Source: Ruminococcus flavefaciens (GTDB taxonomy: Bacteria > Bacillota > Clostridia > Oscillospirales > Ruminococcaceae). Taken from it: a DNA stretch of 49,763 bases. The notes under the pieces were generated by a model. That model saw only the letters and a program-made list of their open reading frames with translations. It was not told the origin of the DNA and ran no database searches. Positions 39,201 to 48,162 of this stretch are shown here, one piece after another. Numbering within the stretch: position 1 is the stretch's first letter; each line of letters starts with the position of its first letter. A program made the translations under genes and the position numbers. The stretch is taken from NCBI GenBank assembly GCA_902762855.1, contig CACWPR010000026.1, forward strand, positions 1 to 49,763, read 5' to 3'.

Positions 39201-42200
39201 TTAAGCATAGGGGTCAAGGTCAGTCACCATTTCCAGGAGGAATCTCTGTATCTGGAGAGCGTCCTGAACGGTAAGGCCGGTATTATCGGGGTCAACGACA
39301 TTAGCCAGTGCCATTCCCTTGTCGGTGATGTGGTTTTCGTCAGTGCCGTCAAGGCCGTACTTGTCATTATTTGAGATGGACTGCATGATAAGTACAACGT
39401 CGTTCATAGCGACGACACCATTGTCATCAGCATCTCCCCATATCCTATTGAGGGGGAATGATGTAGTTGTAGTAGCAGAAGTAGTTGTGGAAGTTGTAGT
39501 AGTTGTGGTAGTTGTAGTAGTGGTGGTAGTTGTAGTGGTGGTAGTAGTAGTTACCACAGGCTGCTCAGCGGCGAATACGATATACTGCATAACACCGGAG
39601 CTCTGGCCGTTTGTGCCGAGGACTACCTTTTCTCCTGCGCTTACCTTCAGAGAGTAAACATCGAAGGCCTTTTCGCTGGAAGAATCAGTGATGCCGACAG
39701 TGTAGGACTCCTTGGTGTAGCCGTTCATCCATGAAGGAAGAGAGGTCATACGGCTGTCGATAGCGATATAGATAATCTCGTCAGCAGCGGCAGTGAAGTA
39801 AGCCAGCTCGGAGTCAGTGTTCTTGGAGTCGCAGGCAGTGATGATACGCTCTGTGCCGGCGAGGTCAGAGGGGAGTGAAGTGATAGTGAACTCACGGTCA
39901 CCGAAAGCAAGGTCACCGGTTGATGAGCTGCTGTCAATGGACCAGCCGGATGCGTGCTCAGAGTCCTCAACGACGAGGCTGCGGATGAGAGTGCCGCTTA
40001 CGGGAAGAGCAGCGGATTCGATGTTCCAGTCCTGGCAATTGAAGCCGTTAACAGTCCATTCCTGAACGTTAGCGCCGTACTCCATGCTGCCGTTTTCTAT
40101 CTCAACAGCGGACTTGTCTGAGGATACCTTAGTGAGTATCTTGTAGGAGCCGTCGCTGTTCTTAGTGAACTTGAACTTCTGATTGTCGCCGCCGTTGTAC
40201 TGATAGAGGTCGATATTGGTACCATCGTCAGCCTTCTTGCCGGCAACGTCGAGGACGAAGGTCTTTCTGTCACCGAGGGCGGAGTAGATGTAGTAGTAAC
40301 CGTCACCGGCGCTGTAGAGTATCCAGGTGTTCCACTCGCCGGCCTTGTTTGTGCCTTCGCCGTTAGCCTCCCACTGCTGGATGTTGGCATTGTTCTCAGC
40401 GAGACCGTTAGCAACTTCGAGGTAGAGGCCGCTGTTTACGTTCTTGAACATTACCATAGTGCCGTCAGTGAATGACTCTGCGGAGGATGAACCTGAGCCT
40501 GAGGAAGTGCCGCTGTTGTAGGCCTTGCCCTGGCGCATACGTCCGGAGTACTCCATGACCTCAGTCTTTGCATCGTCAGCGGACTGAAGGGTGTAGGATG
40601 TGTACATCTTGGAAGAGCTGATGTCGAAGTTGTCGTAAGCGTCACCGCCGGACTTCTGGTTGGCGATAGTAACGTTGGAGGACTTGTTGGAAACGATAGA
40701 GTAAGCAAGTCCGCTGCCCATAGTGCAGCTCACGAACTTGTCGTTGTAGGACTTGATAGTGCCTGAGTAAGCATCGGAGCCCATAGCCTCAGCGGCAAGG
40801 GGCTTGTAGGTGCCCTCGAAGTAGTTGGCCTCGGAGAATATCTTGGAGTTGTATGAAGCGCCGAGACCGTACTGTGCATTAGTTGTGAAGTAGTTGTTGT
40901 AGCTGTGGATATGAGCGTTTCTCGCACGGGGATTACGGGACTCAGTGTTGCTGAACCAGTTGTGGTGATAGGTTATCCAGTCCTGGAACTGAGTAGTACC
41001 GCCGCCGACCAGAGAGGTCTTATGGCAGTTGATGTAGTAGTTGTAGGAGATAGTAACGTACTCGGACCACTTGATGTCAGTGGAGCCGTCGCCGTCGGCC
41101 TTGTCGGCGTCAACGGTGCCGTTGCCTGCGTAGGCATTGTAGCCCTTTTCGATAGTGTTGTTGTGGACCCACATATGAGTGGACTTGTTGTCAGCGTCGC
41201 CGGTCATTGAGATACCGTCGTCGGGGTACTGACCCAGCCAGAGATTGCGGACCTCACAGCTTGTGCAGCGCTTCATCTCGAAGCCCCATTTGTTGAGGTT
41301 AGCGTTGTAGCCGATACCCTCGATAGTAACGTTCTGGCCGTACTGGAGGTAGAGCATACTTGAACCGTCGTTCTGCTGACCGTCATTTGCCTTAGCACCG
41401 GAGGGAACGTCGATAGTGCCGATGAAACGGAATACCACGTTGGAGGGCTTTGCGCTGTAGAAGATGTTGTAGAGACCGGTCTTGCCGCCGTAGGTTATAG
41501 TATCCTTGTTGGAGTTTGTGACGTAGATAACAGTAACACCGGACTTGAGGGTACCGTCGTTATTGTAAGCGCCGACACCTGAGGAGTAGTTCCAGTGAGC
41601 GTAGCCGGAGCGGTCGAAGGACATAGTCTTGACAGTGCAGGAAGCAGAGCCGGAGGAGCCTTCCACCTTAATGGTATACTCAGTATTGCCCTTTAGGCCG
41701 GGGATGTCCACACGGTTGCTGCGGATGAGTTCGGAGTCAACTGTGGTATAGCTTGAAGAGCCGGACTGAGCGTAGCTTACCTTGACGCTGCTGCCTATCT
41801 TTGAGGAATCCCACTCAGCGAATGCCTCCTCATACCAGCCGCCGCAGAGGGTGATAGCGCCGTCAGCGGAGGAAGATGAACCGGATGAAGAAGAGCTTGA
41901 AGTGATGTTGAGGAAGGTGGGAGTCCAGTTTTTCATGTAGCTTGTGAGTGTGATGCCGTTGGCATCGGAAGCAGAGAGCACATGGCCCTTTCTGGAGGAG
42001 AGGGAGACAGCAGTACCGTCAGCCAGCTTTGTACCGTACTCCTTGAATCCGGCAACATTTTCCGGCTGTACGCCGCTCATTGAGTACCAGCCGGCAGCGT
42101 CGATGCAGTCAGCGCTCTGGAGGGTAGTGTTGATGTACATTACCTTAGCAGTATCTCTCCAGGGACGTCCAAGGTATCCGGTCTTGACAGTAAGAGCGGA

Positions 42201-43130
42201 GTTCTTTGTGATATTGCAGTTGCTGAAGAGGTAGCCTGTGTCGTCATTGGAATCATCTCTTGCAGCGGTGATATAACCGCCGGCAGCGTTGGCACTGTAG
42301 CCCTTCCAGCGGAGCTCGCAGGCATCGAAAACAGCGGAGCTGTCACCGAAGATATAGTCGGTCTGACCCTCGATAAGGCAGTTTTTATAATACTGAGGGG
42401 AAGCTCCGGTGTAGAGAGTGTCCTGGCTGCTGAGGAACTGACATCCGAGGAATTCGCAGTAGCCGGCATCTGCTGCAAAAGCGGCAGCACGCTCGGTAGC
42501 GGCCTTGGTCTGGACGTCAGTGGAGGAAGTTCTGACCTGAGATATGCTTGAAACGGAGGTATCTCCCACAAGCTCAACACCGTCAGCTATTTCTTCCTTA
42601 GTGATATAGCGGTTGAATGAGTTCTCGAAAATGATGTTCTGAGCCTTGAAGTACTGAGCCTTGCTCTGGAGCCAGACAGTAGCGCCCCAGCGGTATGGGG
42701 TATTTTTCTGTGACTTGGCGGAGGCATAGGAAGCGTCGTATGTACCGTTGTTCTTGCTGGTATTGACGCTGTAGTACTTGTAGCCGATGCTGTAATAGAA
42801 GGTGATGAGAACATCGCCCTTGGAGGGTTCGTCATTTACGAATGTGATGTAGGGGGTATTGATGAGTACCTGTTCACGGTAAGTACCAGGAGCAATGTGG
42901 ATAGTAACACGTGCAGACTCGCTGGTTGGGTTGATGCTGGCTGCCTTGTTGACAGCCTCCTGAACGGTTGAGAAGTTATTGCTTTTGCCGGAATAGCCTA
43001 CATAGAGGTCAGTACCTGCGGCGGAGGAGCTGAGTGACGGTGGGAATACCAGCGCCAGAGTCAGCAGTACCACCATGGCAGCAATAACCGCAGCCGCTCT
43101 TTTGAAGAGAGGTTTGGTAGTTCTTGTCAT
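39201..43130 (-). CDS. Dockerin-bearing pectin methylesterase - pectate lyase
   Basis: The 1309-residue secreted enzyme begins at ATG 43130 (AAGGAG nine bases upstream). Domains in order: signal peptide (1-38); CE8 pectin methylesterase (about 40-360; SSQDTLYTG, GQTDYIFGDSSAVF, YLGRPWRD); a fibronectin III-like segment (about 427-510); PL1 pectate lyase (about 513-830; DDGISMTGD, TISYNYYINCHKTSLVGG, HHNWFSNTESRNPRARN); a ricin-type CBM13-like domain (about 890-1040); a beta-rich domain (about 1040-1190); a poly-Thr linker; and a type I dockerin (about 1228-1306; GDADDNGVVAMNDVVLIMQ and VDPDNTGLTVQDALQIQRFL). The two catalytic domains would de-esterify and then cleave homogalacturonan, docked on a cellulosome-like scaffold. 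Confidence 0.93.
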   Translation of the reverse strand: MTRTTKPLFKRAAAVIAAMVVLLTLALVFPPSLSSSAAGTDLYVGYSGKSNNFSTVQEAVNKAASINPTSESARVTIHIAPGTYREQVLINTPYITFVNDEPSKGDVLITFYYSIGYKYYSVNTSKNNGTYDASYASAKSQKNTPYRWGATVWLQSKAQYFKAQNIIFENSFNRYITKEEIADGVELVGDTSVSSISQVRTSSTDVQTKAATERAAAFAADAGYCEFLGCQFLSSQDTLYTGASPQYYKNCLIEGQTDYIFGDSSAVFDACELRWKGYSANAAGGYITAARDDSNDDTGYLFSNCNITKNSALTVKTGYLGRPWRDTAKVMYINTTLQSADCIDAAGWYSMSGVQPENVAGFKEYGTKLADGTAVSLSSRKGHVLSASDANGITLTSYMKNWTPTFLNITSSSSSSGSSSSADGAITLCGGWYEEAFAEWDSSKIGSSVKVSYAQSGSSSYTTVDSELIRSNRVDIPGLKGNTEYTIKVEGSSGSASCTVKTMSFDRSGYAHWNYSSGVGAYNNDGTLKSGVTVIYVTNSNKDTITYGGKTGLYNIFYSAKPSNVVFRFIGTIDVPSGAKANDGQQNDGSSMLYLQYGQNVTIEGIGYNANLNKWGFEMKRCTSCEVRNLWLGQYPDDGISMTGDADNKSTHMWVHNNTIEKGYNAYAGNGTVDADKADGDGSTDIKWSEYVTISYNYYINCHKTSLVGGGTTQFQDWITYHHNWFSNTESRNPRARNAHIHSYNNYFTTNAQYGLGASYNSKIFSEANYFEGTYKPLAAEAMGSDAYSGTIKSYNDKFVSCTMGSGLAYSIVSNKSSNVTIANQKSGGDAYDNFDISSSKMYTSYTLQSADDAKTEVMEYSGRMRQGKAYNSGTSSGSGSSSAESFTDGTMVMFKNVNSGLYLEVANGLAENNANIQQWEANGEGTNKAGEWNTWILYSAGDGYYYIYSALGDRKTFVLDVAGKKADDGTNIDLYQYNGGDNQKFKFTKNSDGSYKILTKVSSDKSAVEIENGSMEYGANVQEWTVNGFNCQDWNIESAALPVSGTLIRSLVVEDSEHASGWSIDSSSSTGDLAFGDREFTITSLPSDLAGTERIITACDSKNTDSELAYFTAAADEIIYIAIDSRMTSLPSWMNGYTKESYTVGITDSSSEKAFDVYSLKVSAGEKVVLGTNGQSSGVMQYIVFAAEQPVVTTTTTTTTTTTTTTTTTTTTSTTTSATTTTSFPLNRIWGDADDNGVVAMNDVVLIMQSISNNDKYGLDGTDENHITDKGMALANVVDPDNTGLTVQDALQIQRFLLEMVTDLDPYA
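39463..39555. repeat. Poly-threonine linker triplet repeat
   Basis: More than 25 near-consecutive Thr codons (ACN, read on the minus strand) form an imperfect trinucleotide repeat inside the pectinase gene. Codon usage alternates ACC/ACT/ACA, which limits slippage. The stretch links the last beta-rich domain to the dockerin and is probably flexible and glycosylated. Confidence 0.85.
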
Positions 43131-43207
43131 AGTATTAACTCCTTTTTGAGGTGAGAGGTCGGCGCAGCACTGCCTTATGCTTCGCCTTGCATATCTATAC
43201 ACGATAC

Positions 43208-45629: not shown

Positions 45630-45687
45630 GGTCTCACATCCTTTGCAGAATCAATGTACACGAACAACATTATAATTTATGTGTAAT

Positions 45688-45716
45688 ATTGTATCATAAC
45701 ATTCCTTGAAATGCAA
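45688..45716 (-). promoter_or_regulatory. Promoter of the AraC regulator gene
   Basis: Reading leftward, TTGCAT (45716-45711), 17 bases, TACAAT (45693-45688), with TGA directly before TACAAT as an extended -10. The leader is about 50 bases. Confidence 0.65.
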
Positions 45717-45779
45717 GATGATTCTGCATATTTTTTTTGAGGAATAACAAAAATCTTCTGAATATGATAGAATTATTGA

Positions 45780-45807
45780 TTGCAGAGAGCTGAATTTTGT
45801 GTATAAT
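45780..45807 (+). promoter_or_regulatory. Promoter of a candidate non-coding RNA
   Basis: TTGCAG at 45780-45785 and TATAAT at 45802-45807 are 16 bases apart, on the plus strand, facing away from the araC promoter. No open reading frame follows; the GC-rich hairpin region does. Confidence 0.6.
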
Positions 45808-45813
45808 ATAAAT

Positions 45814-46075
45814 ATAGGCACAGCATAGTACTCATGAGCAGACCGCCTTCAGGGGAACAGCCGTAAAGCGACGGCAGGAGCGGAGCTCACAGAGCGGATA
45901 TGCACAAAAGCGTATGCGGCAGGAAAAGAGCTGGAAAGACCTCAGGCAATAGGCAGCCGGAGGAACAGTACAGAGCGTGAGCCGGATGCGTAAACAGCTT
46001 ATATAACTTACAGACACATTTTCCCTCATATCCGGACTCACTCAGCACAGGAGTCCGGACTTACCAAGCGTTTTT
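45814..46075 (+). ncRNA. Candidate structured non-coding RNA
   Basis: The 559-base gap between araC and metG contains no convincing frame, yet from the promoter onward the DNA changes from AT-rich to GC-rich and purine-rich. Local hairpins are GCCGT-AAAGCG-ACGGC (45860-45875), GAGC-GGA-GCTC (45878-45888), ATATGC-ACAAAA-GCGTAT (45898-45915) and CCTC/GAGG enclosing GGC/GCC (45940-45963). A 9-bp stem TCCGGACTC/GAGTCCGGA (46031-46059) precedes T5 at 46071. Purine-rich joining segments (AGGAAAAGAG, two copies of GGAACAG) are typical of folded RNAs. I cannot assign a class; raiA-type RNA and 6S RNA are candidates to test. Confidence 0.5.
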
Positions 46076-46151
46076 CCCTCTATATATATCCCTCCGAAAG
46101 CTCTTCCCACCTCTCAGGGAGGAGTTTTCTGCTGTCCGGGCGCATAAAGGA

Positions 46152-46190
46152 AAAGAAAAAGCCGCATACAGATGTATGCGGCGATTTTTT
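46152..46190. terminator. Bidirectional terminator between the RNA region and metG
   Basis: A perfect 9-bp stem GCCGCATAC/GTATGCGGC with loop AGAT (46161-46182) is flanked by an A-rich run (46150-46160) and T6 (46185-46190). It ends metG leftward and would also stop any rightward RNA. A further stem CCCTCC/GGGAGG lies at about 46090-46121. Confidence 0.88.
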
Positions 46191-48162
46191 ATCTTATCTT
46201 GGAACCAACAGGGATAGAATCGTCAACGAAGATGACCTTAACACCGTCGGGAGTATCAGCGGCACATATCATTCCGTTGCTGTCCACACCTCTGAGCTTT
46301 ACGGGCTTGAGGTTGGCGATGAGCTGTATCTTTTTGCCGATGAGGTCCTCAGGAGCGTAGTACTGAGCTATGCCGGAGACGACCTGACGGCCGCCCATGC
46401 CGTCGTCGAGCTGTAAGCAGAGGAGCTTGTCGGACTTCTTAACCTTTTCGCAGGCAGTTACCTTGGCAACTCTTATCTCCACCTTAGCGAAGTCGTCGAT
46501 AGTTATTTCAGGAGCCAGGGTGATAGGCTCAGCAGGAGCGGACTCGCCCTTTTCCTCAGCGGACAGCTTAGCCTGAGCGGCGTCCATATTTTTCTTGATG
46601 ATAGCGTTGAGCTCCTCTATCTCCTTGTCAACGTCGATACGTGGGAAGAGGATAGCGCCCTTGTGAACGGTAACGTTCATGGGGAGCACACCGAACTTGT
46701 CAGCGTTTTCGTAGGTGGTATCCTCAGCGGAAGCGCCTATCTGCTCCCAGACCTGGGGCATAGTAGAGGGCATGAAGGGGGAGAGAAGGGTAGAAACTAT
46801 ACGGATAGCCTCCAGGAGGTTGTAGAGGACGGAGGCCAGCCTTGGGCTGTCAGCCTCATTCTTGCCCAGCTTCCAGGGCTCAGTCTCGTCGATGTACTTG
46901 TTTGCACGGTCAACGACCTTGAAAATATCCTCCAGAGCGGACTTTATCTTAGTCTCGTCGATAGACTTGTCCACAGAGTCACGGAGAGCGGTTACAACTG
47001 AGATGAAATCCTTGTCGATGTCAGCCTCCAGACGGTCCTCAGGGAGGGTACCTCCGAAGTACTTGTCAGCCATAGCGACGGTACGGGAAACGAGGTTTCC
47101 GAAGCCGTTAGCCAGGTCGGAGTTGATGCGGTTTATCATTATCTCATTTGAGAATGAGCTGTCAGCGCCGAGAGCCATTTCACGGAGGATATGGTATCTG
47201 ATAGCGTCACAGCCGTAGCGTTCACCGAGGACGAAGGGGTCAACGACGTTGCCCAGGGACTTGGACATTTTCTCGCCGTTCATAGTAATCCAGCCGTGGA
47301 TAGCCAGGTGCTTGGGGAGCGGAATATCCAGAGCCATGAGCATAGCAGGCCATATGATAGCGTGGAAGCGCATGATGTCCTTAGCGACCATGTGGACGTC
47401 GGCAGGCCAGAACTTATCAAAATCGTTGTAAGCAGAGTTGAGGTAGCCGAGAGCAGTGATGTAGTTTGAGAGAGCGTCTATCCAGACGTAAACGACGTGA
47501 CCCTCATCGAAGGTAACGGGGATGCCCCACTTAAAGGTAGTACGTGAAACGCAGAGGTCCTCCAGACCGGGCTTGATGAAGTTGTTTACCAGCTCAGTGG
47601 CACGGGTCTTAGGCTGGAGGTAGTCGGTCTCAGTGAGGAGCTTTTCGATGCGGTCAGCGAAGGGGGCCATTTTCATGAAGTAAGCCTCTTCCTTAGCGAA
47701 AGTCACAGGTCTGTGACATTCAGGGCAGCAGCCGTTCTCATCGAGCTGAGAATCGGTCCAGAAGCTCTCGCAGGGAGTACAGTACTTTCCGGAGTACTCG
47801 CCCTTATAGATGTAGCCCTTGTCGTAGAGTGCCTTGAAAATTTTCTGAACGGACTCAACGTGGTAGTCGTCAGTGGTACGGATGTATCTGTCGTAGCTGA
47901 TGTTCATATATTTCCAGAGTTTCTGGAACTGAGCAACGATGCCGTCAACGTATTCCTTGGGGGTGATACCGGCCTCAGCGGCTTTCTGTTCTATTTTAAG
48001 TCCATGTTCGTCAGTACCGGTAAGGAACATGACGTCATAACCCTGCATTCGTCTGTAACGGGCGATAGAGTCGCAGGCGACTGTAGTATAGCAGTGACCT
48101 ATATGGGGGTTGCCCGAGGGGTAGTAGATAGGCGTAGTAATGTAAAAGGGTTTTTTGGACAT
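46189..48162 (-). CDS. metG: Methionyl-tRNA synthetase
   Basis: MetRS charges tRNA-Met. The catalytic domain shows YPSGNPHIGHCYTT (HIGH), a zinc knuckle (CTPCESFWTDSQLDENGCC, then PECH) and GEKMSKSLGN (KMSKS). The anticodon-binding helices follow. The last 110 residues or so form a tRNA-binding domain of the Trbp111/CsaA type (DDFAKVEIRVAKVTACEKV, LQLDDGMGGRQVVSGIAQYY). Length 657 is typical of Gram-positives. It is transcribed from a consensus promoter with a leader of about 55 bases and ends at a hairpin adjoining its stop. Confidence 0.97.
   Translation of the reverse strand: MSKKPFYITTPIYYPSGNPHIGHCYTTVACDSIARYRRMQGYDVMFLTGTDEHGLKIEQKAAEAGITPKEYVDGIVAQFQKLWKYMNISYDRYIRTTDDYHVESVQKIFKALYDKGYIYKGEYSGKYCTPCESFWTDSQLDENGCCPECHRPVTFAKEEAYFMKMAPFADRIEKLLTETDYLQPKTRATELVNNFIKPGLEDLCVSRTTFKWGIPVTFDEGHVVYVWIDALSNYITALGYLNSAYNDFDKFWPADVHMVAKDIMRFHAIIWPAMLMALDIPLPKHLAIHGWITMNGEKMSKSLGNVVDPFVLGERYGCDAIRYHILREMALGADSSFSNEIMINRINSDLANGFGNLVSRTVAMADKYFGGTLPEDRLEADIDKDFISVVTALRDSVDKSIDETKIKSALEDIFKVVDRANKYIDETEPWKLGKNEADSPRLASVLYNLLEAIRIVSTLLSPFMPSTMPQVWEQIGASAEDTTYENADKFGVLPMNVTVHKGAILFPRIDVDKEIEELNAIIKKNMDAAQAKLSAEEKGESAPAEPITLAPEITIDDFAKVEIRVAKVTACEKVKKSDKLLCLQLDDGMGGRQVVSGIAQYYAPEDLIGKKIQLIANLKPVKLRGVDSNGMICAADTPDGVKVIFVDDSIPVGSKIR

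Follow-up and report, generated by a model that had tools for sequence, protein, structure and literature searches.

Genomic context and boundaries of the ncRNA

The window, that is, the whole 49,763-nt stretch of Ruminococcus flavefaciens DNA analyzed here, contains a gene-free gap of 559 bases between a regulator gene and metG, both encoded on the minus strand, and within this gap a structured noncoding RNA (ncRNA) is placed on the plus strand (Table 1). This arrangement agrees with the initial annotation, as does the plus-strand promoter, which was read from the sequence and was absent from the output of a simple promoter scan, and whose −10 box TATAAT recurs at the matching position in relatives. 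The 5′ end of the RNA was placed from this −10 box. The 3′ end had originally been assigned to a 9-bp hairpin stem followed by T5. However, T5 (46071 to 46075) lies 11 bases beyond the stem of that hairpin, which is thus no intrinsic terminator; the terminator is the downstream stem-loop followed by TTTTCT, so that the RNA would end at about position 46130 rather than at 46075.

Folding of the ncRNA stretch gave a predicted minimum free energy of −92.3 (z = −3.0), and none of 100 shuffled sequences was equally low. Its composition confirmed a core rich in G+C and purines, while the AT-rich flanks claimed earlier were found on the 5′ side (GC of 0.25 to 0.29) but not on the 3′ side (0.40 to 0.51). 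Similarly, GGAACAG, described earlier as a repeat, does occur in two exact copies in this stretch (by eye), but the repeats are not notable, the only pair returned by a repeat search being a 22-nt one with 73% identity located elsewhere. A small open reading frame in place of the ncRNA was rejected, since no suitably spaced start codon follows CAGGGGA (by eye) and relatives read by eye show no constant frame. Between the ncRNA and metG lies a terminator-like hairpin legible on either strand.

Table 1. Coordinates of features at the ncRNA locus (window positions)
Feature	Position	Strand	Basis or remark
Large secreted protein gene	39201-43202	-	Pectinesterase, pectate-lyase and ricin-B-lectin domains; dockerin-bearing by regex
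Divergent regulator, 744 aa	43395-45629	-	Periplasmic-binding-protein-like, GGDEF and AraC-type HTH domains (Pfam)
Gene-free gap	45630-46188		559 bases
AT-rich block with ATGCAAGATGATTCTGCAT	45700-45760
Operator-like element	45752-45782	+	Common to the PL11 promoter; 2 genome sites, 0 mismatches, reversed control 0
Promoter (-35 TTGCAG, 16-nt spacer, -10 TATAAT)	45780-45807	+	Read from sequence
Structured ncRNA, ~315 nt	45816-46130	+	Promoter, terminator, fold z -3.0, orthologous RNAs in congeners
CAGGGGA motif	45850-45856	+	In 14/30 de-redundified ncRNAs, shuffle maximum 3
Hairpin CCUCaGGC-AAUAGGCA-GCCgGAGG	45940-45963	+	UAGGC at 45950-45954; predicted loop unpaired probability 1.0
Hairpin initially mistaken for the terminator	46031-46059	+
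Segment complementary to PL1-CBM77 pectate lyase (L205) start region, 14 nt	46086-46099	+	Not conserved
Intrinsic terminator (stem-loop 46100-46125, then TTTTCT)	46100-46130	+
Terminator-like hairpin	46161-46182	Either
metG	46189-48162	-

The operator-like element and alternation of the ncRNA with PL11

When up to three mismatches were allowed, the operator-like sequence AATCTTCTNAANATGAYAGNATTNTTNATTG was found at two places in the window assembly, at the ncRNA and at a PL11 gene on another contig, both being perfect. A looser pattern (≤2 mismatches) was present in 67 of 125 genomes, mostly beside the regulator and as a single site in all but five, so that the ncRNA is the sole site found in many genomes that carry it, the pattern having been built from these very sites. 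Extra operator-like sites were considered as markers of further ncRNAs and rejected, because those in G028, G108, G127, and G099 lead instead into genes whose products look secreted; one such leader, L179 (G108:C96), contains CGGCAG-UUUAGGCU-CUGCCG (by eye). The AT-rich block is kept beside the element in relatives and is possibly the regulator's own control site. We infer that the regulator binds the operator-like element and senses a pectic sugar. The gene on its other side encodes a large secreted protein with pectin-related domains (Table 1).

Homologues of the regulator, which is of the LacI/GGDEF/AraC type, were detected in 105 of 125 genomes of the genus (E ≤ 1e-60), and the locus also occurs in the named records FD-1, 007c, ATCC 19208, and ND2009 of R. 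flavefaciens and relatives. The 90 upstream regions compared, from which weak regulator hits, incomplete ones lacking a start (e.g., G096), and one lacking upstream sequence (G138) had been omitted, comprised 47 with a delimited ncRNA (promoter plus terminator), 4 with an undelimited one (L037, L038, L120, and L128), 32 with a PL11 rhamnogalacturonan-lyase gene in the position of the ncRNA, 6 with neither (L096, L097, L101, L102, L136, and L137), and 1 cut by a contig edge (L119). The delimited ncRNAs range from 107 to 479 nt (ends set by hand in 8 of the 47; L128 was removed from the set), and the 51 ncRNAs in total are devoid of a long reading frame. PL11 was called by a sequence signature in 31 cases and by eye in L123, with two examples being RGL11 by Pfam. 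On a tree of 40 regulators, PL11 and ncRNA states switch six times, of which at least five switches are forced by well-supported branches, although this tree was a quick one of hand-chosen sequences with long branches, on which L037 and L038 were scored as ncRNA. As for the other neighbor, metG was rejected as a partner of the ncRNA, because among 29 metG-downstream stretches of relatives read by eye, an RNA stands beside metG in G024 only.

Structure and motifs conserved in the ncRNA family

When 60 genomes were searched by plain DNA similarity, the window ncRNA segment matched only itself (1/60), which taken alone would argue against conservation in close relatives, the point on which the initial annotation had staked the RNA; the orthologous locus recognized by synteny, however, is conserved in design. 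No Rfam family was found at the gathering threshold in the window or in 18 relatives' loci, so the family search proposed earlier yielded no identity, and the weak matches obtained on the gap at E ≤ 10 include none that convincingly spans the ncRNA. In addition, a 6S identity was rejected, since 6S RNA was found elsewhere in the window genome.

Covariation, in contrast, was seen among relatives. In 18 alignable ncRNAs (176 to 234 nt), 14 of 29 predicted pairs had changed on both sides, and 93.1% of the paired cells were filled by pairs versus 87.0% after shuffling (0/500 as high) and at most 69.6% after sliding, with the structure derived from the tested alignment and hence biased in its favor. 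Further pair types were less clear (24/500 shuffles as high), and the long-range AGGGG/CCUC helix varies on a single side, leaving this pairing unproven. Among ten short ncRNAs (107 to 132 nt), 3 of 21 predicted pairs showed double changes. The window ncRNA is too diverged for either alignment and could be aligned in short blocks only with those of G024, G064, and G103.

After removal of near copies, 30 of the 47 ncRNAs were retained, among which CAGGGGA occurs in 14, ACAGGAC in 12, TACCCTC in 12, and TAGGCA in 17, compared with shuffle maxima of 2 to 6. In the short ncRNAs, the UAGGC motif is located in the terminator loop. The conserved promoter and operator-like element, the motifs, the covarying structure, and the terminators that congeners have at the corresponding locus argue, at the level of sequence, for the structured ncRNA proposed in the initial annotation.

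These observations also bear on whether the RNA is a functionless relic, left over as leader and 3′ end after a PL11 transcript lost its reading frame. The alternation of the PL11 gene and the ncRNA at one promoter would fit such an origin, as would the 3′ ends of PL11 loci, at least 7 of 23 of which carry UACCCU and a terminator shortly past the stop codon, with UAGGCA inside the terminator loop in L338 and L344 as in the short ncRNAs (all by eye); moreover, UACCCUC was not enriched as a general 3′-untranslated-region feature in the window-genome (G000) sample. This resemblance suggests common descent rather than absence of function. Compensatory changes, the recurrence of motifs over diverged RNAs, and the retention of the RNA in most ncRNA lineages together with an intact regulator and operator all point to selection, and a relic without function therefore appears decidedly improbable.

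Complementarity to pectate lyase mRNAs

A base-pairing role was also evaluated, in which a C-rich segment near the 3′ end would pair with the Shine-Dalgarno regions of pectinase mRNAs and alter their translation. The longest perfect complement of the ncRNA in 740 start regions of G000 indeed spans 14 nt and belongs to a PL1-CBM77 pectate lyase (L205:10143, minus strand), a second lyase (PL1-CBM77-dockerin, L218:12207, minus strand) matches the same ncRNA site over 11 nt, and CCCTC-type motifs are recurrent in the ncRNA family. The two lyases are paralogous, however, and so amount to about one observation, and matches of at least 10 nt were about as frequent in the start regions (16/740) as in a sense-strand control (13/740), including those to dockerin genes (2 versus 2), which as a group match no better (p = 0.49). 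Whole-RNA duplexes ranked the two lyases only 169th and 363rd of 740, with ranks of 1 and 5 being reached solely with a 35-nt segment picked after the match had been seen, and structure prediction leaves little of the segment unpaired within the RNA (unpaired probability of 0.10 at position 46090). Across the PL1 leaders of 11 ncRNA genomes, the genome's own ncRNA formed the best duplex in three and the long match occurred in G000 only, so that the conserved complementarity of a Shine-Dalgarno-blocking RNA was not found. We thus consider base pairing of this kind unlikely.

The UAGGC hairpin in ncRNAs and mRNA leaders

Among the hairpin-loop 5-mers of the ncRNAs, UAGGC ranks first of 1,024, with 17 of 30 ncRNAs having it in a loop closed by five or more pairs. 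The window ncRNA has a single such hairpin, whose stem of 3 + 4 pairs flanks an A-G mismatch and fails the strict 5-pair rule, and 13 of the 30 ncRNAs lack a strict one; therefore, multivalency is not general.

The same hairpin occurs in mRNA leaders. In a sample of the window genome covering 1.63 of 2.70 Mb, 5 of 680 leaders carry it, preceding genes for a GH74-like protein (named by eye; Pfam reports BNR/Sortilin repeats), for a GH43 enzyme whose top NCBIfam match, to an arabinan endo-arabinosidase, stays under its cutoff, for a DUF6055 protein, for a protein resembling GDSL esterases, and for a protein with a solute-binding domain that by eye looks secreted. Four of the five are dockerin-bearing, compared with 26 of 680 overall (Fisher test, 8e-6; best of 505 5-mers), by a dockerin regex loosened post hoc once the esterase had been seen; the original regex gave 3/5 versus 23/680, and only one of these five proteins has a Pfam Dockerin_1 match. 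In other species, UAGGC hairpins were present in 9 of 29 GH74-like leaders, as the top loop 5-mer with its own shifts as runners-up, and in 7 of 30 DUF6055 leaders, as the top 5-mer tied with the overlapping AGGCA, leaving 20 and 23 leaders, respectively, without a strict hairpin. By the same rule, UAGGC was found in none of the control leaders (PL1, 0/28; metG, 0/26; PL11, 0/32). These sets were 29 of 30 for GH74-like (L408 being cut by a contig end), 28 of 30 for PL1 (without L382 and L390), and 26 of 30 for metG (without L017, L018, L022, and L023). In the leader L400 (G090), two tandem UAGGC hairpins stand ahead of the GH74-like gene.

UAGGC copies lie inside hairpin loops in 9 of 14 cases in GH74-like leaders, 7 of 12 in DUF6055 leaders, and 19 of 38 in ncRNAs, whereas the loop share of other three-G/C 5-mers is 0.9%, 1.1%, and 4.6%, respectively; over all window-genome leaders, the values are 5 of 33 versus 3.5% (p = 0.005). 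Because the sequences are related, the p-values of the UAGGC statistics are inflated. In an initial scan of 850 kb that scored loops by 5-mer density, UAGGC went unranked, its count being below the limit. Rfam searches over the hairpin-bearing loci returned only tRNAs and one NiCo riboswitch (L419, 1146 to 1230, minus strand, near the GH74-like gene in G021) and no family covering the UAGGC hairpins.

The stems around the loop differ among the GH74-like leaders (e.g., ACCGGAU/GUCCGGU, GCGGAA/UUCCGC, and GGCGGAU/AUCCGCC), and such differing stems around one loop argue for repeated selection of the UAGGC loop. A fixed loop on free stems, common to the ncRNA and enzyme leaders, is what would be expected if a shared binding partner selects. 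Alternatively, the hairpins may be 5′ stabilizers or processing sites of highly expressed transcripts that have no action in trans. Leader hairpins do often lie just downstream of the promoter (by eye), and hairpins associated with selective RNA processing and stabilization of cellulosome mRNAs are reported for the cip-cel operon, as are stem-loops that determine how stable the mRNAs of Ruminiclostridium cellulosomal operons are (PMC4423207, PMC8219983, and PMC10311766). However, those hairpins reportedly stand at processing sites or at the 3′ ends of operon genes, while those considered here are in 5′ leaders, have a fixed loop, and are common to a separate ncRNA. A stabilizer would select the stem rather than a fixed five-base loop, yet stems vary freely among the 30 distinct hairpins (a set selected for loop and pairing), and the motif also occupies the terminator loop of short ncRNAs. 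The probability of this alternative is accordingly low.

Relation to known systems and a proposed decoy mechanism

A hairpin-loop motif that appears from sequence to be present in both an ncRNA and mRNA leaders recalls the Csr/Rsm systems (CsrB/CsrC and RsmX/Y/Z), with which a carbon-related titration would be the common logic. Nevertheless, the top recurrent loop here is UAGGC and not GGA, and often one hairpin is present where Csr/Rsm decoys have many; of the features of such decoys, the hairpin common to ncRNA and leaders was found, while several GGA-loop hairpins were not. A sponge for CsrA acting through GGA-rich sequence was rejected, since the CsrA family PF02599 had no match in G000 (92.88% complete), with matches in 3 of 14 genomes in the control.

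ANTAR-target RNAs consist of two neighboring hairpins whose hexaloops have a conserved A1 and G4, and small RNAs have been proposed to sequester EutV, an ANTAR-type antiterminator, in ethanolamine utilization in Firmicutes. If the UAGGC hairpins were antiterminator targets of this type, the ncRNA would sequester the antiterminator. The logic and the recognition of a hairpin loop, with an ncRNA decoy in Firmicutes, are similar, AUAGGC-like loops fit the A1/G4 pattern, and the leader L400 has two hairpins. But the position preceding TAGGC is T in 15 and A in only 11 of 30 distinct hairpins, so A1 is not conserved, and most leaders have a single hairpin with a fixed five-base motif, unlike the pair of A1/G4-loop hairpins in ANTAR targets, which makes an ANTAR identity very improbable.

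In the portions available to us, the literature on small and structured RNAs of Ruminococcus and on cellulosome small RNAs contained nothing on this ncRNA or hairpin, although candidate lists (e.g., PMC8040213) could hold it, and likewise nothing on small-RNA control of Ruminococcus fiber degradation.

The comparisons suggest that the ncRNA, whose operator-like element also stands at a pectin-degrading gene, may be a decoy controlling fiber-enzyme genes. In the mechanism that we propose, the regulator would sense a pectin-derived sugar and switch on the ncRNA, whose UAGGC hairpins would titrate a putative factor, presumably a protein and less likely another RNA. This factor would otherwise bind the UAGGC hairpins that enzyme mRNAs carry ahead of their start codons, and its titration would change the translation or stability of the hairpin-led mRNAs; by analogy with CsrB, the ncRNA would relieve repression. 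In the simplest reading, the decoy would tune enzyme mRNAs to the pectic substrate. Counting against a decoy are the single imperfect hairpin of the window ncRNA and the absence of a strict one from 13 of 30 ncRNAs and from most GH74-like and DUF6055 leaders; PL11, the other presumed target of the regulator, has no such hairpin in its leaders either. On balance, a stand-alone structured ncRNA of the R. flavefaciens group, linked to a pectin-related regulator and altering enzyme mRNAs through titration by its UAGGC hairpins, is plausible but tentative, somewhat short of probable. More doubtful is the wider proposal of a regulon of its own, unrelated to Csr/Rsm, in which the putative factor would read the UAGGC-loop leaders of cellulosome and other fiber-related mRNAs and an ncRNA under a pectin-linked transcription factor would titrate it, with ncRNA and PL11 swapped repeatedly.

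The shared hairpin could serve as a bait for the putative factor, and it points to particular leaders for assays and to the ncRNA as a deletion target. Should the proposed reading hold, decoy systems of the Csr type would have been built a second time and independently, in a bacterium that is a major degrader of fiber in ruminants, and one promoter would at this locus serve an enzyme gene and an ncRNA by turns.
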